Source: a virus
Length of the DNA stretch: 28,678 bases
IMG/VR virus record: IMGVR_UViG_3300027733_000017
Span: 1 to 28,678 of that record
Direction: 5' to 3' (one strand)
The notes under the pieces: generated by a model
Told to the model about the DNA's origin: nothing
The model's input: the letters and a program-made list of their open reading frames with translations, nothing else
The model's database searches: none
Part shown: positions 4,133 through 28,678 of the stretch, one piece after another
How positions within the stretch are numbered: the stretch's first letter is position 1
How the letters are laid out: each line of letters begins with the position of its first letter
Position numbers and translations under genes: made by a program

Positions 4133-7100
4133 TTAACTTGCTTTAATAATAACTATACCTGTTTTACCGGCACCGCCATCTTGTAATGTATATGTTGTTC
4201 CAGTTTGACTATCATGAATAAATCCACCTCCATATCCACCAGATCCAGGAATATTATAATTTAATGTAGTTGCATGATTTGCAGGTGCCGAACGTAAATC
4301 ACTTGTTACTGTATTAACAGTTAATGCAGATGGATTTGAATTAGCCGTGCTACCTTGACCAATATCACCACCATGTCCTATTTCATAATTATCTACTGAT
4401 TCTAAAATTGAATATTGAATATCGATACCATCTGCAGAATTTAATAAATCAAGTCCTCTACCATATTGATAAGTGTGTAAATCACTTCTTTGACCAATAG
4501 TTTGAGATATTTGTTCAACATTATTTAATTTATATGAAATTGTATTGAGTACAGCATTATTACTTCCTCTTCCACCAGTTGCAGTATATGTTGTGCTATT
4601 ACTAAATGTAATTAATGAATTAGTTCCATTAGTTGCAGATAATCTATCTGGGATGATTATTATTTTAGATGCAATATATCGTCCTCTTGTTGATGAAGAA
4701 GACTCAACACCATTACTACCAACTCCAACAAATAATCCATTTGAATTTACTGTAATTGCATTTAATTGTCCATATGTTGATGATATTAATGTAGGTTCGG
4801 TCCAATTGGTACCATCAATTGAAGTTGTATAATATGGATAATTATAATTATTCCATCCAGTTGCTACAAAAACATTATCTTTACTACATGTAATTGATTT
4901 TAACACTAACGAAATTGTTGTATTATTGATAATAGCAGATTCGGTCCAATTGATACCATCAGTTGAAGTTGTATAATGTGGTTCAAACCCAATACTACCT
5001 CCACCTCCAACTGCAACAAATAATCCATCTGAATTTACTGTAATTGCATGAAAAGAACTATCCGATGTTACCATTGGAGTTGGACCACTCCAAGTTGTTC
5101 CATTAGATGATACTATACTGTTAGTATCAGCAACGGCAACAAATAATCCATCTGAATTTACTGCAATTGATACAGAATGTAACGCTGGAAAGTTTACTAC
5201 AAACTCCGCCGGCGATATAGATATAGGTGCAGCCCATGTTATACCATTATATGAAATTGAATAAGCAGGTGAACCATAAGTTCCACCAACCTCAATTCGA
5301 TATCCAACTGCTATAAATATATCATCTTTACTACATGTAATTGCATTTAATCGGATTTGGTTACCAGGAGAAATTGGTATTGCAGTCGGTGTTGTCCATG
5401 TTGTTCCATTACTTGAATATGAAGATACCGTATATCCACTATCATTTTCACCAATTGCAACAAATAATCCATCTGAATTTACTGCAATTGAATTCAATTG
5501 AGCATTTACTGTACTACCATTCATTAATGATGGTGTTGTCCATGTTGTTCCATTACTTGAGGTTGAATATAAAGGATCACTAGATGAATTATAACCAACT
5601 GCAACAAATAATCCATCTAAATTTACTGCAATTGAAGTCATATAAGCATTAGTTGTTGAATTAATTACAGACATCGATGGAACTGCAGCAAACGAAATAG
5701 ATGAAGATTTTGATTGAGAAAATAAACCTCCAGCACCGACCGTACCAGTTATAATATTAGTTACTGCAGAAGTATTGATAATTTGATTAGTATTGACTAA
5801 TAAAGATCCACTCCAACCACCATTACCTATTTTACAGAATCCATAATTTGGTAACGGACTTATAGAATTATAATATAATGAACCTGATCCACCACCTCCG
5901 CCTCCAATTATTGCATAATTTATAGTTCCATAATAATATGAATCTAATGGTATTGCATATGTAAATGCACCTGCAGTATTATAGATAGATGTAGTCGTTA
6001 TAATTGTTCCAATAGTACCTGAATAAGATAAATTAAAACTTACTGTTTGTTGTAATACTGAATTGCGATATTTCTTAAACGTAATTGTAGTAGATGCTGT
6101 AGAATCTTTTACAGGATAATATTTTATTTCACTAAATTTAGAATTAATTGTAGTATATGTTCCAGTATAACTTACCATTTGTAATGGAGTAGTAGCCGAT
6201 GCACCTGTTAAATATCCAGTTGTACATCTAACTTCAATTGTAAATGTTGCAGTCGGAAATCCTGTTTCTAAATATGGAGTATTTGTCGCAAAGATTGCAG
6301 TACCGATATTTTTATCATATGTTCTTGCTGCGGTAATATTATATGTATGATCATATGATGGTATTGCAGATACTGTTGATAAAGTTGATAATGCAGCATT
6401 ATATTGATAAGTGTGGCCATAAATTGGAATTATATATAATGATGCAACTGATGAAAGTGCAGGGCTTGGTCTAAATATAATGTTATTATGTATAATACTT
6501 GTACTAATAGATGTTAAATTTGCAGTCAATCTTACTGGACTTAATAACATCCATCTACAAATAATTATTGGATTAAATGCAGATGGTAAATTAATATAAG
6601 GATCAAAAGTATAATTTGGTAATACATTATAATCAAACTCTACATCCATATAACTTCTGCATCGTATATTTGCAAGTTCAATTGAAGGATAAGTCGGTGT
6701 ACGATCATATCCATAACTTGCATTGCATGCAAATACAAAATTAGAATTCATTATAACATCTTTTGGATTTTCACCAATATTACATACAACAGTGAATTTA
6801 GAATATAAATCAACTGATCCAGATTTAGATGTTTTTGCTTCAATTGTAAAATTACTAAGCATTTCTACAATAGCACTTTGTGTTGTACCAACCGTACTTG
6901 ATATAGATGGAACACGTAATACAACAGTTGATTCCATTCTTGCAATATAATAAAATCTTGTATCAAATTCTAACCAAGTATAACTTTGATCTAAGTTTAA
7001 ATCAGAATCAAAATATACAATACTTACTTCAAGATACCAAAATGGTGAACTTGCATAGTTACTTGGTAAATTCCAAGTAAAGTTTTTAATCAATTCCCAC

Positions 7101-7432
7101 TGTGCAACTGTAGTAATACCATTTAATGTATAAACAGATCCACTCGTAGATAAAGTAACACCACTAGGTAATGTTGCAAATGTAATACTACTTCCTGATA
7201 ATGCAGGTATTCTTTCTGTTTTAATTTCAACCCGATATCTTACATTAGCCGTTTCTGGTCTAATAATCTCAGCAATACCAACAATAGGATTTACTAAAAC
7301 TGTCGTTGAACTAATATCCAATTGGTTGTAATATGTAATTGGAGTATAAGTTAAATTTACTCCAGATGGACGTTCATCAGTATATGTTACTGTTTGATTT
7401 GATGCATTATTAAGTTCTGATAATGATTGCAT
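4133..7432 (-). CDS. Giant tail-tip protein with glycine-rich and propeller-like domains
   Basis: The 1,099-residue protein's first ~25 residues (SLSELNNASNQTVTYTDE) look like a short piece of a tail-tip hub. After that, residues 30-480 are beta-rich with no recognised motif. Residues about 500-590 form a glycine-rich domain (IIGGGGGGSGS), which resumes at about 930 and ends with GGAGKTGIVIIKAS, a typical ending of glycine-rich phage tip proteins. Between them, residues about 595-915 hold seven ~45-residue repeats (GLFVAVG ... SxNGTTW). The gene lies between the two halves of the hub, overlaps the upstream stop as TAATG, and precedes 2222-4123 by 9 bp. A receptor-binding role is inferred from domain type and position. 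Long Ser/Thr/Ile-rich runs make mis-assignment to another adhesin family possible. Confidence 0.75.
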   Translation of the reverse strand: MQSLSELNNASNQTVTYTDERPSGVNLTYTPITYYNQLDISSTTVLVNPIVGIAEIIRPETANVRYRVEIKTERIPALSGSSITFATLPSGVTLSTSGSVYTLNGITTVAQWELIKNFTWNLPSNYASSPFWYLEVSIVYFDSDLNLDQSYTWLEFDTRFYYIARMESTVVLRVPSISSTVGTTQSAIVEMLSNFTIEAKTSKSGSVDLYSKFTVVCNIGENPKDVIMNSNFVFACNASYGYDRTPTYPSIELANIRCRSYMDVEFDYNVLPNYTFDPYINLPSAFNPIIICRWMLLSPVRLTANLTSISTSIIHNNIIFRPSPALSSVASLYIIPIYGHTYQYNAALSTLSTVSAIPSYDHTYNITAARTYDKNIGTAIFATNTPYLETGFPTATFTIEVRCTTGYLTGASATTPLQMVSYTGTYTTINSKFSEIKYYPVKDSTASTTITFKKYRNSVLQQTVSFNLSYSGTIGTIITTTSIYNTAGAFTYAIPLDSYYYGTINYAIIGGGGGGSGSLYYNSISPLPNYGFCKIGNGGWSGSLLVNTNQIINTSAVTNIITGTVGAGGLFSQSKSSSISFAAVPSMSVINSTTNAYMTSIAVNLDGLFVAVGYNSSSDPLYSTSSNGTTWTTPSLMNGSTVNAQLNSIAVNSDGLFVAIGENDSGYTVSSYSSNGTTWTTPTAIPISPGNQIRLNAITCSKDDIFIAVGYRIEVGGTYGSPAYSISYNGITWAAPISISPAEFVVNFPALHSVSIAVNSDGLFVAVADTNSIVSSNGTTWSGPTPMVTSDSSFHAITVNSDGLFVAVGGGGSIGFEPHYTTSTDGINWTESAIINNTTISLVLKSITCSKDNVFVATGWNNYNYPYYTTSIDGTNWTEPTLISSTYGQLNAITVNSNGLFVGVGSNGVESSSSTRGRYIASKIIIIPDRLSATNGTNSLITFSNSTTYTATGGRGSNNAVLNTISYKLNNVEQISQTIGQRSDLHTYQYGRGLDLLNSADGIDIQYSILESVDNYEIGHGGDIGQGSTANSNPSALTVNTVTSDLRSAPANHATTLNYNIPGSGGYGGGFIHDSQTGTTYTLQDGGAGKTGIVIIKAS
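4690..5650 (-). repeat. Seven tandem propeller-like repeats inside the giant tail-tip gene
   Basis: Seven coding repeats of about 130-150 bp each encode a strand of the type AVNSDGLFVAVG followed by an S-x-N/D-G-x-x-W turn. The turn resembles the Asp-box/BNR-like element of beta-propellers. The DNA copies still share blocks such as caaataatccatctgaattt, so amplification may be recent or maintained by recombination. Two units replace AVNSDGLF with TCSKDNVF/TCSKDDIF. Seven units would fit a closed seven-bladed propeller, but the fold is an inference. Confidence 0.75.
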
Positions 7433-12174: not shown

Positions 12175-12721
12175 TATTCGTCCCTCGCTCTTTTAAGCAT
12201 TTCTATCATTTCACTTTGACTTGGATGTTTGGAAGATGGGGTAATTCCATTTTCCTTATCATGCAAATATTTAACGTATTTTGAACTCAAATCCAAAACC
12301 TTTAGATCAAATGTAGTTGCTTTAGCAAGTGCTTCACTTGGTAAGCAATTATAGCGATGTGCTAGATTATCTAGAGTTAACATGGCAAGTACCTCATTAC
12401 TCTCGAAGTCTATGTCATCGCTGATTACTTTCCCAATAATTCAGTAATTTTAGTAATAACTTTTAGTAATATTGTTGTTGGAATTGTAATGCCATCTTTA
12501 ATGATTTCTTTACCTTCTGGATCAAGAATCAATGTACGTACAATATCAATCATTCCAGTAGCATCATTTTCTGTATTGTTTGCTAACTTAAGAAAGACAT
12601 CAAGTGGTTGGCGATCCCATGTATGGAATTCAAGTGGTTCTCCGTATTCTTTGACAACATCTTCGTCATCAATTACTAAAGAAATAAGTTGTGGTTTTGA
12701 GGCTATTTGGTTTAAATGCAT
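12174..12721 (-). CDS. Tail assembly chaperone, -1 frameshift fusion (GT-like)
   Basis: Translation from 12721 that slips -1 at GGGAAAG (12434-12428) misses the TAA at 12427-12425. It continues as VISDDIDFESNEVLAM into the frame ending at 12174, giving about 182 residues. The second part (69 residues from an internal ATG at 12383: MLTLDNLAHRYNCLPSEAL) has the ANRYxCxPSEAL type pattern of lambda gpT-like extensions. No stop lies between the slip site and that ATG in the -1 frame. Such fusions bind tape measure and tube protein during tail assembly. The gene stands immediately before the gp10-like gene and the tape measure, as expected. Frameshift use is inferred; independent initiation at 12383 is the alternative. 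Confidence 0.83.
12425..12721 (-). CDS. Tail assembly chaperone (G-like)
   Basis: I chose the start at 12721 (MHLNQIASKPQL, 98 residues) because an AAAGGA ribosome binding site lies six bases upstream. The longer frame to 12811 overlaps another small gene. Residues 15-50 hold IDDEDVVKEYGEPLEFHTWD and RQPLDVFLKLA, as in siphovirus tail chaperones that shield the tape measure while tube protein polymerises around it. The frame ends with LLGK at the slippery heptamer just before TAA. It lies one base-pair gap after the stop of 12724-12894 and is the zero-frame product of the fusion listed at 12174-12721. Confidence 0.85.
   Translation of the reverse strand: MHLNQIASKPQLISLVIDDEDVVKEYGEPLEFHTWDRQPLDVFLKLANNTENDATGMIDIVRTLILDPEGKEIIKDGITIPTTILLKVITKITELLGK
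12428..12434 (-). promoter_or_regulatory. Programmed -1 frameshift site GGGAAAG
   Basis: The minus strand reads GGGAAAG with zero-frame codons GGA-AAG directly before TAA. It is the same heptamer used by lambda gene G. The -1 frame stays open from this site to 12174. I did not find a clear downstream pseudoknot, but the immediate stop codon may help the slip. Confidence 0.83.
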
Positions 12722-12723
12722 GA

Positions 12724-12894
12724 TTAATCCTTTCTGTTTATCAATTCGTTGGCGACGACTAAAAGAAAGTTTAGTCTGCTTTGCGCCTTTGTTATATCTA
12801 TTTGAGCACATTTTATTTCGTTACCTGCTTTAGCAAGTTCAGCAACAACACTTTTAAGTAATTCATTGCGGCTCTTATCTTCTAATATGGTCAT
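12724..12894 (-). CDS. Small unknown protein before the tail chaperone
   Basis: A 56-residue frame starts ATG at 12894 (MTILEDKSRNELL) and ends at 12724, with the next gene's ATG three bases beyond. It is Lys/Glu/Ala-rich and predicted helical (AELAKAGNEIKCAQIDITKA), so it could be a small coiled-coil protein. Its ribosome binding site is weak (AAGAAATG context only), but it fills the space between a promoter-like repeat (12931-13011) and the chaperone and does not overlap any better frame. No family is recognised. It may be another tail-assembly factor or simply a leader peptide that adjusts chaperone translation. Confidence 0.55.
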   Translation of the reverse strand: MTILEDKSRNELLKSVVAELAKAGNEIKCAQIDITKAQSRLNFLLVVANELINRKD

Positions 12895-12930
12895 TTCTTT
12901 TTATCTTCTCTTGTTACAGTATTGCTATCT

Positions 12931-13011
12931 AATTAATTACCTTATCTGGTTATGGGCCATATGTTAATAACTTGATCATTACTACTATAAGCCGCACACC
13001 TTTTTGTAAAA
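12931..13011 (-). repeat. Copy A of duplicated promoter-like element
   Basis: This 81-bp stretch matches 22870-22951 at most positions (two near-identical blocks separated by a divergent 10-bp segment, plus one indel). On the minus strand it contains CAAAAAGGTGTGCGGCT (13006-12990), followed by TATAGT (12989-12984), with TTTACA (13010-13005) 15 bases upstream of it. This looks like a -35/-10 pair with a short spacer. It lies directly after the tail-tube terminator and before the chaperone/tape-measure block, where a new transcript is needed. Promoter function is inferred from position and duplication. Confidence 0.65.
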
Positions 13012-19644: not shown

Positions 19645-20022
19645 TTAAAAGTGATCAACAATGAATTTAATTTCTTCTTCGTCAAAGGCAATTGCATATT
19701 CATTTATAACATTTTCAATATATGGTAATTGACTTTTACTAATATCATTCTTAAAGTTATGATCCTTATTAAAGTAATTATGCACAACCCCACCTAGTAT
19801 GCTTAATCTATTGTTATGCGTTCCACCTTTACGTGTACCAAATAATTCTTTATTCTTTTGTGTCGCAGTACTTTTACCAGCAGTAGAGGTTGTCATCTCA
19901 GCGTACTTTGCTAAGATTAAAATTGCTCTTTGGATAAAGATTTGCATATCATCATAGTCAATAGTAACATATTCATTACCTGAATTAGTAAATCCGCGAT
20001 TAGTATATTTTACATGAAACAT
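19645..20022 (-). CDS. Unknown 125-residue protein
   Basis: The frame begins at 20022 (MFHVKYTNRGFTNSGNEY), overlapping the end of the next upstream gene by 13 bases with a weak CGGAA site. It has a YDDMQIFIQRAILILAKYAE helix, a Gly/Thr/Lys-rich loop (TRKGGTHNNRL), and an acidic C-terminus (DEEEIKFIVDHF). I recognise no family. The His/Asn/Lys-rich loop could bind nucleic acid, but no catalytic motif is convincing. It does not look like a lysozyme or amidase. Position between polymerase genes and terminase suggests a DNA-metabolism or packaging accessory. Confidence 0.75.
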   Translation of the reverse strand: MFHVKYTNRGFTNSGNEYVTIDYDDMQIFIQRAILILAKYAEMTTSTAGKSTATQKNKELFGTRKGGTHNNRLSILGGVVHNYFNKDHNFKNDISKSQLPYIENVINEYAIAFDEEEIKFIVDHF

Positions 20023-20357
20023 GAGTTTTTCCGTTTTGGTTTATTTTCGTTTATTATTCTACTTCTAATTAATTGTTCATTGCGGGGGATTACTAATATG
20101 TTATTCTTCTGCCATGGTTTATCGACATCATCTCTAGTCATACAAAAGTCGTCAGGATTTCTACCTCTTTGAGTCCAACGATCTTTCCATAGATCATAGA
20201 ACTCGTCAAAGGTAAGATTAAACTCTTCGTTACGAAACTTTGCTTGTGCTTTTGATTTTAAGAATGGCATATGCATGCTGTGTCTAAATTCATCAGCACC
20301 ATATTTCCATGTGTGTGGGCGGGGTTTAATTGGTTCTTTGTTTCTTTTACTTGCCAT
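20010..20357 (-). CDS. Small basic protein, HNH-accessory-like
   Basis: The 115-residue basic protein has an AAGGAG ribosome binding site before the ATG at 20357. It has FDEFYDLWKDRWTQRGRNPD, then FCMTRDDVDKPWQKNNILVI and PRNEQLIRSR. The order (W-x-R-GR, CMTR-x-D, PW-x-x-NN-x-x-V/I) resembles a set of small phage proteins related to the non-catalytic flank of HNH endonucleases, in which this segment binds DNA. No HNH or zinc residues are present, so nuclease activity is not supported. It lies near the endonuclease VII-like gene. Function is an inference from pattern and basic charge. Confidence 0.75.
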   Translation of the reverse strand: MASKRNKEPIKPRPHTWKYGADEFRHSMHMPFLKSKAQAKFRNEEFNLTFDEFYDLWKDRWTQRGRNPDDFCMTRDDVDKPWQKNNILVIPRNEQLIRSRIINENKPKRKNSCFM

Positions 20358-20640: not shown

Positions 20641-21000
20641 TTACTTTACTATCCGTAATACAGGTTTCTGTTTCTTTGGTTTTCGTTTAACTTTAGTATG
20701 CAATGGATGTTCTTCAATACGTTCATTGCTTATATACTGTTCATAATTAGCAAGGATTGCTGTTAACATATCCTTATTGATTAAGTTCCGTTTTCTATTA
20801 TTCTCTATTTTACTAATAAACGTATTACAAAAGCGATGCACTGTATTACGGATCTTTCCTGAGGTATGGCTATGATCAAGTACCGGCCCATTTGTTGATT
20901 TTGGATCAATAGGAGTATTGCATAAAGGGCATATATGATTATTTTGGATCAGTAGTTTATCTCTTAATTCTTTTAGTTCTTTATATTTTAATTTAGACAC
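20641..21000 (-). CDS. Endonuclease VII-like (HNH, Holliday-junction type) nuclease
   Basis: The 119-residue protein contains CPLC at residues 24-27, LDHSH at 41-45 and HRFCN at 55-59. In the recombination endonuclease VII family (T4 gp49 type) the corresponding elements are a CxxC, a DHDH catalytic motif and a second CxxC. Here the second pair appears as HxxC, which could still hold zinc. The C-terminus is a basic Lys/Arg/Pro tail (KVKRKPKKQKPVL) likely for DNA binding. The only acceptable start is GTG at 21000, overlapping the tiny upstream frame. Next to the polymerase, it probably resolves branched replication DNA before packaging. Confidence 0.85.
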   Translation of the reverse strand: MSKLKYKELKELRDKLLIQNNHICPLCNTPIDPKSTNGPVLDHSHTSGKIRNTVHRFCNTFISKIENNRKRNLINKDMLTAILANYEQYISNERIEEHPLHTKVKRKPKKQKPVLRIVK

Positions 21001-21069: not shown

Positions 21070-22704
21070 CTAAATCTCTTGATTCATAAGTTCATAAAGC
21101 ATTTCTTCCATGCTAGGAATTTCATCGACCTTTACATTATTTGATTTGTAATCTTTTGCTATCTTTTCTTGACTGATAATATATTGTTGATGCTGCGTTA
21201 AAGTATCTTTAGATTCAGCACTAATGTATGTATATGGATTATGTATATCAAGTGTCAATGTCCATAATTCAATTTGAAACTTTTCTCTAATAATCATTTC
21301 AATCTCTTGTTTATCATTTTGGCTTAATTTAGTATCAATAATTACTGCATCATGGATCTTAGCAGTAATTGTTTTACCTAATCCTTCAAGCATCAAATGC
21401 ACTGCATTCATAATCTTTGTTTCTGCTTGTTGATATAAGAATGCGTTTAATTTAGATCTATTTACATTTCCTCTTCTATCCTTTAATTCACTTATTGCTA
21501 ATATACTTGGATTAGATTTATATTTGTTATACAAGTAATCATCAATTAACTTTTGATCTTCGATAAAGTTTTTAATATGCCAAAAGTTTAAGAACTTTGT
21601 ACGTAGTCCTTTATCTGGGATAATATCATTAATGGCTGTTGTTACTTTATCACCTTTTGCATTATACCACATGCCGCCTGTAGTTACTTTAGCACCAAAA
21701 CTTATGGCATTAAGGACATCTTTAATCTTTCTACTAGCATCTTCTTTGGATATTTCAAACCATTGTTCTGTTTTGGTATTAAACATCTTATATCCGCGGA
21801 ATACTTCATTGTACGTATCAAGTACAAAGCCTTTCTTATCTTCTAAAAACAATATACTGGATTTCCAATCTCTTGATGGATCAACTTCTTTAGCATACTT
21901 CATTTTCCATGTAATTGCACTACTGCGGATATCATATTGATAACATTCACCAATGGCTGCGTATCTAAGTGATTTATATGTGCCTTGCATACTAAGTCCT
22001 CGATAATATGTTCTACCAAATAGACTTTTATTTTTATACTGTGGAAGGAAACCGCCTGTTACTTTTGCTATACTATGCATTATTCTTGATTGACGGAACA
22101 TATCTTGTTTTTTAGATTGTTCTATTTTATATGCAGTTGGAAGCCATTCAATGTATCCACGTAATGATACTGTATCAATTGGAGTATAATCAAATAATGG
22201 ATTAGTCAAGTCATCATGGTTTAATTCAGGAAACAACGATTGAAATATCTCATAGTGCATGTCATGATCTAACATATCATCTAAGTCATATGTCGGTAAT
22301 TGAGTATATTCTAAGTATTCAGTAAATTTTGGGTATTTCACAATAGGATCCTGGTAAGTTGCTAATTCTAATTTAATAACAGATAGTTTATGGGTTAAGT
22401 TATTGCCTTCTTCAATTGTAGTAAACAATGGATAGTTCTGTTTAAGCCAATCATGGATGTAAAGTTTCTCTGCACCCATACGCATTGAATTTCTTTTTAA
22501 AATATCAACTGGAACACTGAAATGGACATATCTATATACGCCCTCTGTATTCATAATGCTTTTTGTTATATAGGAATTAAGTTCACTGAGGTATTTGCTT
22601 AGTCCGTTGTTCACGTTCTCTGCTTTCTTTGGGTATGCTTCTTTTAGAGCATCTCTAATATATTCGGGGATTGTTATCATGTTATTCTCGTTAAAAGTTT
22701 CCAT
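21070..22704 (-). CDS. Divergent superfamily-A polymerase, TV-Pol-like
   Basis: I prefer the start at 22704 (METFNENNMI, 544 residues, AAGAGAG upstream); an ATG at 22758 in the same frame is possible. Numbered from 22704, motif A is YQYDIRSSA with D258. The O-helix-like motif B has K328, N332 and F336-G337 (the K-x3-x-x3-YG spacing of family A DNA polymerases and T7 RNA polymerase). The segment NAFLYQQAETKIMNAV precedes motif C, KIHDAVIID, with H451-D452. No 3'-5' exonuclease motif is seen in the first 230 residues, which may hold a primase-like or accessory part. It is the only replication protein recognised. The set of motifs is compatible with the transposon/viral TV-Pol family proposed to combine primase and polymerase roles. 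It follows its own strong promoter and leader hairpins. Confidence 0.75.
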   Translation of the reverse strand: METFNENNMITIPEYIRDALKEAYPKKAENVNNGLSKYLSELNSYITKSIMNTEGVYRYVHFSVPVDILKRNSMRMGAEKLYIHDWLKQNYPLFTTIEEGNNLTHKLSVIKLELATYQDPIVKYPKFTEYLEYTQLPTYDLDDMLDHDMHYEIFQSLFPELNHDDLTNPLFDYTPIDTVSLRGYIEWLPTAYKIEQSKKQDMFRQSRIMHSIAKVTGGFLPQYKNKSLFGRTYYRGLSMQGTYKSLRYAAIGECYQYDIRSSAITWKMKYAKEVDPSRDWKSSILFLEDKKGFVLDTYNEVFRGYKMFNTKTEQWFEISKEDASRKIKDVLNAISFGAKVTTGGMWYNAKGDKVTTAINDIIPDKGLRTKFLNFWHIKNFIEDQKLIDDYLYNKYKSNPSILAISELKDRRGNVNRSKLNAFLYQQAETKIMNAVHLMLEGLGKTITAKIHDAVIIDTKLSQNDKQEIEMIIREKFQIELWTLTLDIHNPYTYISAESKDTLTQHQQYIISQEKIAKDYKSNNVKVDEIPSMEEMLYELMNQEI

Positions 22705-22839: not shown

Positions 22840-22869
22840 GCAAAAAAGAGATACAGAGTTATGCTTATT

Positions 22870-22951
22870 AATTAATTACCTTTATCTGGTTATGGGCCAT
22901 CTCCTTATTACTTGATCATTACTACTATAAGCCGCACACCTTTTTGTAAAA
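22870..22951 (-). repeat. Copy B of duplicated promoter-like element
   Basis: This is the counterpart of 12931-13011, with shared blocks AATTAATTACC...TATGGGCCAT and CTTGATCATTACTACTATAA followed by GCCGCACACCTTTTTGTAAA. The 10-bp middle differs (ctccttatta versus atgttaataa). The minus-strand TTTACA/TATAGT pair is conserved. It lies upstream of the separate TTGACT promoter, so the polymerase unit may be read from two promoters of different timing. Confidence 0.65.
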
Positions 22952-22985: not shown

Positions 22986-23002
22986 AGCCGCACACCTTTT
23001 TG
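22986..23002 (-). repeat. Third, short copy of the repeat core
   Basis: Seventeen bases (AGCCGCACACCTTTTTG, or CAAAAAGGTGTGCGGCT on the minus strand) recur 56 bp from the same core in copy B. The TATAGT box is not retained, so the 17-bp core itself may be a protein binding site. Confidence 0.65.
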
Positions 23003-27351: not shown

Positions 27352-28678
27352 CTAATAGGTTATATTCCAACCTTTTATATTTGCTAATGACATATCTAAT
27401 TTTCTAAATGTACGTGCCGCTGTTGTCGCAACTTGATATGGTCTATCTACTGTAACTGATGTACTAGTAAATGATACTATTTGTTGTCTATAGAAAACAA
27501 CACCGCCAGTACCTGTATTAAATGTAACTGCTGCTCCACCGGATGTTAATGATATTTGAAACGTATTAGTAGCAGCATTTATTACAAAATACGGCGTACC
27601 AATAGCAATACTTCCACCAGAAGTGCCTATAGTATTAAACATAACCCTATCTCCATTAACAAATCCATTATTGGTTAGATTTACTAATGCCCCTGTACCA
27701 GTAAATGTTACACTAGCACTACCCGTAACAACTGTTGTCATACCTACTGCTACTCCAGTAGTAGATGCTGCAGTAATTGTATAACCGCCGACTGTAACAG
27801 TGCCACTAGCAACTGTTATAACAGTATCAATACCTGGATTACCGGTAATAGTTAAAACATTACCCAAAGTTGCTGCTTTTCCTAAATTATTAGTCAACGT
27901 TTCTAATGAAGTTTTCGATAATCTATAACCTACAGTAAATGCTTGTGTCATATTATATGCATCAATCTTTGATAAAGATGCTAATAAAAATGTAGTTGTA
28001 TAAGAATTATGTAATGCCATATTAATTGCAGGAATTGATGTTATTGATGATCCAATATATAGTTGATTAAAAGATATTGCTGCTGTATTAAATGTTATAG
28101 TTGGATGAACAAATAATAAAACACAATTTTGAAATGCAAAATTTGCTGATGTAACTTTACTAAAATTTAGTGCTGGTAATGTGTTTAATGAAAAACATCC
28201 GGAAAACATTGAAGTTATATTTGTAACGTTACTAAAATTTAGTGCTGGTATTGAAGTTAATGAAGCACAATTTTGAAACATATATGATGTGTTTGTTGCA
28301 GCCGCTAAATTAAACAATGGTACTTGAGTTAAACTATAACAATTATAAAACATATAACTCATATCAATTGCTTTAATTGTATTAAACAATGGTACTGATA
28401 ATAAAGCACTACATCCAAAAAACATTGAACTTGTACTTGTAGCATTTTGAGTATTAAACAATGGTACTTGAGTTAATGAAGCACAATTATAAAACATTGA
28501 ACCCGTATTTGTTGCGGCTGCAGTATTAAACAATGGTACTTGAGTTAAATTATAACATTGGTTAAACATTGCATTAAAACTATTACAACTTGCAGTATTA
28601 AATAATGGCACTGAATCTAATTCATAACATTGGTTAAACATACTGGCCATATTTGCAACATATTGAGTATTAAACAAT
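27352..28678 (-). CDS. Tail fibre, C-terminal part (BspA-type repeats)
   Basis: This is the C-terminal part of the 717-residue fibre that begins at 954 across the circle. In the joined protein about 12 repeats of 24 residues (MFNQCYxLxxVPLFNT type) run from about residue 180 to 480. They are followed by a region with degenerate repeats (SMFSGCFSLNTLPALNF), then a beta-rich end with GNVLTITGNPG, an NNGFVNGDRVMFNT motif and a YFVINAATNTFQISLTSGG segment. The latter is common in phage fibre proteins. The final residues are LANIKGWNITY. Repeats near the end are identical over long DNA stretches, so copy number may vary and the assembly may have collapsed units. Receptor binding is likely but not shown. 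Confidence 0.85.
   Translation of the reverse strand, partial: LFNTQYVANMASMFNQCYELDSVPLFNTASCNSFNAMFNQCYNLTQVPLFNTAAATNTGSMFYNCASLTQVPLFNTQNATSTSSMFFGCSALLSVPLFNTIKAIDMSYMFYNCYSLTQVPLFNLAAATNTSYMFQNCASLTSIPALNFSNVTNITSMFSGCFSLNTLPALNFSKVTSANFAFQNCVLLFVHPTITFNTAAISFNQLYIGSSITSIPAINMALHNSYTTTFLLASLSKIDAYNMTQAFTVGYRLSKTSLETLTNNLGKAATLGNVLTITGNPGIDTVITVASGTVTVGGYTITAASTTGVAVGMTTVVTGSASVTFTGTGALVNLTNNGFVNGDRVMFNTIGTSGGSIAIGTPYFVINAATNTFQISLTSGGAAVTFNTGTGGVVFYRQQIVSFTSTSVTVDRPYQVATTAARTFRKLDMSLANIKGWNITY
28552..28678. repeat. Right copy of exact 127-bp terminal repeat
   Basis: Identical to bases 1-127. See the left copy for interpretation. Confidence 0.95.

Follow-up and report, generated by a model that had tools for sequence, protein, structure and literature searches.

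A rare, divergent polymerase-like protein of a small phage, distantly related to family A DNA polymerases, and its possible role as a primase-polymerase

The polymerase-like gene and its surroundings

The window analysed here, a stretch of 28,678 bp that is a whole IMG/VR record, carries on its minus strand a gene for a polymerase-like protein of 544 aa (P0001), which runs from an ATG at 22704 to a stop codon at 21070-21072, the coordinates being those of the first-pass annotation; comparison with homologs makes M9 (22680) an equally good alternative start. The record ends in an exact direct terminal repeat of 127 bp (1-127 is identical to 28552-28678), which implies a unit genome of about 28,551 bp, apparently circularly closed. 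The terminal repeat falls inside a gene built of 72-bp repeats, and this gene may hide collapsed repeats at the genome join. Its array (44-378 and 28163-28641, across the contig ends) consists of 24-aa units of the form MFNxCxxLTQVPLFNT, which we take to resemble surface repeats of the BspA/DUF285 type, and the product is perhaps a variable host-recognition protein. Repeats spaced by about 144 bp are also found at 4656-5650, within a 1099-aa ORF of the tail region (4133-7432), where the SxDGxxW...NSDGLFVAVG units are reminiscent in sequence of Asp-box repeats.

The recognised phage genes encode terminase, portal, scaffold, major capsid and tape measure proteins, and by terminase the nearest named relatives (53-55% identity) are phage DSL-LC06 and the Pelagibacter phages HTVC202P, HTVC026P, HTVC112P and HTVC111P. 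Among the ORFs scanned against Pfam and/or PHROGs, the only other nucleic-acid enzymes besides the terminase are a recombination endonuclease VII (20641-21000, minus strand; phrog_423, PF02945) and an HNH-like protein with a weak match (20010-20357, minus strand), both encoded downstream of the polymerase gene; none of these ORFs matched an exonuclease, a helicase or an SSB. Nor is an exonuclease domain recognisable in P0001, in agreement with the first-pass annotation. No integrase lies beside the phage polymerase gene. At 31%, the GC content of this gene is phage-like (33.6% for the phage) and unlike that of its chromosomal homologs (about 45-47%), which implies that any transfer was not very recent.

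Upstream of the polymerase gene lies an intergenic repeat of about 95 bp (22857-22951, minus strand) that contains the 17-mer CAAAAAGGTGTGCGGCT. A second copy of the repeat (12918-13011, minus strand) stands upstream of the gene at 12425-12811, the two being identical in 86 of 96 aligned columns, and an extra copy of the 17-mer (22986-23002, minus strand) is again found upstream of the polymerase gene. The 17-mer thus occurs in three exact copies where 0.02 would be expected, all on the coding strand: two shortly precede the polymerase gene, and the third precedes a gene of the tail module that encodes 128 aa. Neither the 95-bp repeat nor the 17-mer was found in the phage relatives that we fetched. 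The repeat may be a promoter, an operator or an initiation site.

A six-member family and its placement

Searched alone, P0001 belongs to no Pfam, NCBIfam or PHROG family and has no credible match in the PDB. We set aside phmmer matches to polyubiquitin chains as noise summed over repeats, since di-ubiquitin chains reach only E 0.3-1, and tblastn matches to annotated phage DNA polymerases are weak (E 5-7) and count as leads only. The first lead to a homolog was an unannotated 767-aa ORF of Desulfovibrio phage 7757 (tblastn E 3e-3; pairwise E 2e-9). The shared hairpin pattern, GRxYxxGxxxQGxxKxxR, scanned over about 85,000 GTDB genomes, gave 87 matches including one true homolog, L183, from the uncultured betaproteobacterium isolate AlinenLipids_bin-2398, which shares 34% identity with P0001 (phmmer E 2e-75) and matches the Desulfovibrio phage protein as well (E 2e-8). 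A two-sequence profile of P0001 and L183 found three more full-length genes in 201 genomes of L183's bacterial family, and it returned only the known homolog from genomes sampled across the class, phylum and order of G001, the genome of L183 (369, 399 and 389 genomes). A sample of 367 genomes from the class of an alphaproteobacterium held no homolog, and searches for relatives in IMG/VR and among plasmids with single proteins or small alignments as queries gave none. Five matches to a motif pattern in IMG/VR were all false, and further patterns gave none. That so few homologs occur in such wide genome samples indicates that the clade is rare and patchy.

The resulting family has six members, namely P0001, four betaproteobacterial chromosomal genes and the Desulfovibrio phage ORF; the four closest homologs are 28-34% identical to P0001. 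The protein of Desulfovibrio phage 7757 (SRB7757) matches over nearly its full length (hhalign 98%, P 1.8e-13), although it is longer, about 20% identical to P0001 and encoded in a 142-kb phage. We note that this remote member (L002, 4167-6470) has an extra C-terminal region.

All six members share R231, Q240, R247, D258, K328, G337, Y424, Q425, E428, H451 and D452, and position 336 is Phe or Tyr throughout. Residues 227-247 (SxFGRxYYxGxSxQxxxKxLR; 21964-22026, minus strand, as for all segments of the protein) correspond by position to the family A arginine hairpin and include the invariant R231. Motif A (residues 255-267, YQYDIRSSAITWK; 21904-21942) holds D258, motif B (residues 328-338, KDVLNAISFGA; 21691-21723) has the form K-x7-[FY]-G-A in every member, and YQxxE (residues 424-428) is followed by the HD of motif C (451-452; 21349-21354) within 21337-21435. 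The N-terminal part (residues 1-195; 22120-22704) has L35, K37, Y38, L42, W86, L87 and S108 conserved in the family and contains no known domain. D258, K328, F336-G337, NAFLYQQAETKIMNAV and H451-D452, which the first-pass annotation had picked out from a single sequence, lie exactly where it put them and are conserved across the six-member alignment; the polymerase family motifs are more than chance and the catalytic residues are invariant in all six members.

Other residues that characterise DNA polymerases have gone. In all six members, the position five residues after the motif A Asp (E710 in Pol I, the steric-gate Glu) is Ala or Val, that four residues after the motif B Lys (F762 in Pol I) is Asn or Thr, and HD is followed by Ala or Gly, Ala453 of P0001 replacing the Glu of DNA polymerases. 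Judging from the alignment, W266, conserved in five of the six, could for example act as a substitute steric gate. The Arg of the RxxxK motif is also absent from all six, the position four residues before K328 being Ser, Val, Leu, Thr, Thr or Val. The missing Arg might indicate that P0001 is catalytically dead, or a non-polymerase RRM/palm protein such as a replication regulator, and some polymerase-like proteins of similar elements are known to have lost their catalytic Asp residues (PMC10061031). Here, however, both putative catalytic Asp residues, the His before D452 and the Lys of the fingers are invariant down to about 20% identity, and we regard a dead protein as very improbable.

To which polymerases the family is related emerges from profile-profile comparison. 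Sequence-profile searches returned nothing above threshold: hmmscan of the family members gave no convincing named polymerase family, PF00476 was not matched by hmmscan or hmmsearch, PF00940 was not matched in a search in which control genomes were silent too, and the divPolA2 HMM (phrog_4756) scored P0001 within the noise of random ORFs. When the family core (residues 196-490) was compared as a profile, with 150 column-shuffled templates as control, it matched family A DNA polymerases (P 7.6e-4) and divPolA2 (P 1.1e-3), in both cases with 0 of 150 shuffles as high. In both alignments HD falls on the motif C dipeptide, and that with divPolA2 also pairs the hairpin GR, Q and R, as well as D258, with the equivalent residues; in that with family A the program left the motif A region unaligned, and this correspondence was matched by eye. 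For T7-like RNA polymerases the comparison gave P 0.31, and 45 of the 150 shuffles did as well. The superfamily A affinity proposed from the single sequence is supported by profile-profile comparison with family A DNA polymerases, but by neither the sequence-profile searches nor the T7-like RNA polymerase profile. AlphaFold models are of low confidence (pLDDT 35.5 for the whole protein alone, 41.1 for the core with L183); in the core model motif C lies in a helix-strand-turn-strand-helix order, and its eleven best PDB neighbours are all DNA polymerases, none of them significant (best E 0.63), which is only suggestive.

P0001 shares with family A DNA polymerases (Pol I, T7 gp5; PF00476) the arginine hairpin GR...Q, the motif A Asp, the motif B K-x7-[YF]-G and the motif C HD, but the clade differs from them in having no exonuclease, steric-gate Glu, F762 equivalent, HDE Glu or RxxxK Arg. 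Like divPolA2 of barbaviruses and Vibrio phages (Yutin et al. 2024), it is stand-alone in a phage and has a GRxYxxG...R hairpin and a Q..S/E segment before motif C, the N-terminal domains being unrelated; most divPolA2 proteins, in contrast, have His or Glu at the position five residues after the motif A Asp and DE or DS in motif C. We think it highly likely that P0001 has a polymerase fold and polymerase chemistry, and the description that fits it best is that of a new divergent clade adjoining family A, which none of the libraries searched names, TV-Pol having been compared by description only.

The likeness to TV-Pols (Iyer, Abhiman and Aravind 2008), a group that includes the SCCmec protein CCPol and that the first-pass annotation had brought to mind, holds in part. 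TV-Pols also have 400-600 aa, no fused nuclease domain, an N-terminal extra region and a hairpin Arg with two Asp residues (R231, D258 and D452, invariant in the P0001 clade), and genes for a resolvase, a lambda-type integrase or a transposase have been described in their neighbourhoods (PMC2579912), a linkage that we find in the form of integrases or a resolvase at the four chromosomal homologs though not at the phage copy. Size and the genomic context of the chromosomal homologs thus agree, whereas the RxxxK of the TV-Pol fingers is missing from all six members, and P0001 is for this reason not filed as a TV-Pol, membership being unsupported; nor is it filed with divPolA2 or the T7-like RNA polymerases. 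CCPol also keeps the equivalents of E710 and F762, the Pol I residues that discriminate against ribonucleotides, and prefers dNTPs (PMC7581432), while the P0001 clade keeps neither. A D5-like helicase, a feature of a subset of TV-Pols, was identified neither near the phage copy nor in the partly scanned neighbourhoods of the homologs. In the third of the Microcystis phage Ma-LMM01 genome that was read for a TV-Pol (95-145 kb), none was found.

The same residues bear on whether P0001 is instead an RNA polymerase of the single-subunit kind, with the 17-mer CAAAAAGGTGTGCGGCT or the 95-bp elements as starting points for the transcription of phage genes. The three residues specific to DNA polymerases have been lost in all members, and P0001 has the GRxY hairpin of T7 RNA polymerase, together with a small residue five positions after the motif A Asp, K-x7-[YF]G and an HD motif C, as in T7-like and N4 single-subunit RNA polymerases. 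The repeats, with three exact 17-mers on the coding strand, are the main support for reading P0001 as an RNA polymerase or a site-specific primase. Yet the core matches the profile of family A DNA polymerases and shows no detectable similarity to that of the T7-like enzymes, P0001 is shorter than T7 RNA polymerase, the 95-bp repeat is far longer than a promoter of the T7 type and there are only three sites. We also note that no repeated 14-mer is found near the polymerase homolog in L205. On balance, we consider transcription of phage genes by P0001 unlikely.

Chromosomal neighbourhoods and phage relatives that lack the gene

A site-specific recombinase is encoded within about 5 kb of each of the four chromosomal homologs: phage-type tyrosine integrases near those in G001, G929 and G826, and a serine resolvase near that in G924. 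The neighbourhoods in G001 and G929 have a DUF6641 gene in common. In G929 (L203; 4158-5946, 10640-13234 and 18270-19498), the surroundings of the polymerase homolog hold two to three copies of a gene for an integrase-like protein of 451 or 455 aa and of the DUF6641 gene, which suggests tandem or nested copies of one element. The phage probably acquired its copy from another member's setting, with an integrative element as the proposed source.

The gene for endonuclease VII that adjoins the polymerase gene raises the possibility that P0001 works together with this neighbour as a polymerase of repair, translesion synthesis or recombination, and for divPolA2 a part in repair, or else an RNA polymerase function, has been suggested (PMC11348598). 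Relatives of the endonuclease VII are nevertheless present in related phages without the polymerase, and none was seen beside the chromosomal homologs in the part scanned. We therefore hold a role in repair to be unlikely.

Among 36 related phage records, found through the terminase, no homolog of the polymerase is present; some of these IMG/VR records are fragments, but five of the 36 are genomes of named phages, 30-32 kb long and complete according to their deposition, and this phage lineage thus replicates without the gene. This counts against the proposal of the first-pass annotation that P0001 is a single-protein replicase for a 28.5-kb phage. Its gene is the only polymerase-like one found in the 28.55-kb genome, and the absence of any other recognised replication enzyme could be taken to mean that P0001 is the phage's own and only replicase, both making primers and copying the genome. 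Against this stand the relatives without the gene, some of which have a DnaD-domain protein instead, and the lack of a helicase, an SSB and a proofreading domain in the phage itself; we judge a sole replicase to be improbable. A wider caution is that the sole polymerase gene of a small phage need not encode its replicase.

A DnaD-domain protein is annotated in the early region of the pelagiphages HTVC202P (L085), HTVC111P (L087) and HTVC026P (L088). Such a protein suggests recruitment of the host helicase. The DnaD-domain genes of these related pelagiphages are consistent with a lineage that recruits the host replication machinery.

Possible roles of P0001

On the motifs that it shares with family A, P0001 would be a palm-type nucleic acid polymerase that stands alone, has no exonuclease and belongs to a rare clade distantly related to that family. 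From the correspondence of the motifs and their invariance, it would most likely use a two-metal mechanism with D258 and D452, K328 and F336-G337 lying in the fingers. The host replisome probably carries out basic replication of the phage, as in the relatives without the gene, and P0001 would most likely be an accessory initiator that makes short primers and then extends them, in the manner of a prim-pol or primase. We give an accessory primase-polymerase an even chance of being its main role. P0001 may also use rNTPs or have a relaxed choice of sugar, since its predicted active site is without the residues by which Pol I and CCPol reject ribonucleotides. A role in priming is suggested by analogy: CCPol, one of the TV-Pols, has proven primase-polymerase activity in combination with its partner MP, which it needs for priming (PMC7581432), whereas no SSB-like partner of P0001 was identified.

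A bolder possibility, which we consider improbable, is that the clade forms a further branch beside Pol I/TV-Pol and the T7-like RNA polymerases. Its enzyme would be a minimal palm polymerase that lacks the usual discrimination between sugars, starts by itself at the 17-mer or 95-bp repeats and supplies integrative elements, and a small phage after its capture, with a primase, a transcriptase or both. Should P0001 prove active, it would represent an undescribed clade related to family A, found near betaproteobacterial recombinase genes and in two unrelated phages, in which the residues that select between deoxyribonucleotides and ribonucleotides have gone. Such a clade would help to test the kinship of DNA polymerases, primases and single-subunit RNA polymerases, and would offer a compact candidate primase or RNA/DNA polymerase.

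Lastly, we note that an uncharacterised protein of 115-119 aa, with a start resembling EITxSLLxFIATVRV, is encoded in the regions of two of the chromosomal homologs (L183, 6193-6540, in G001; L203, 7810-8169, in G929), and is a candidate small partner of these polymerase homologs.
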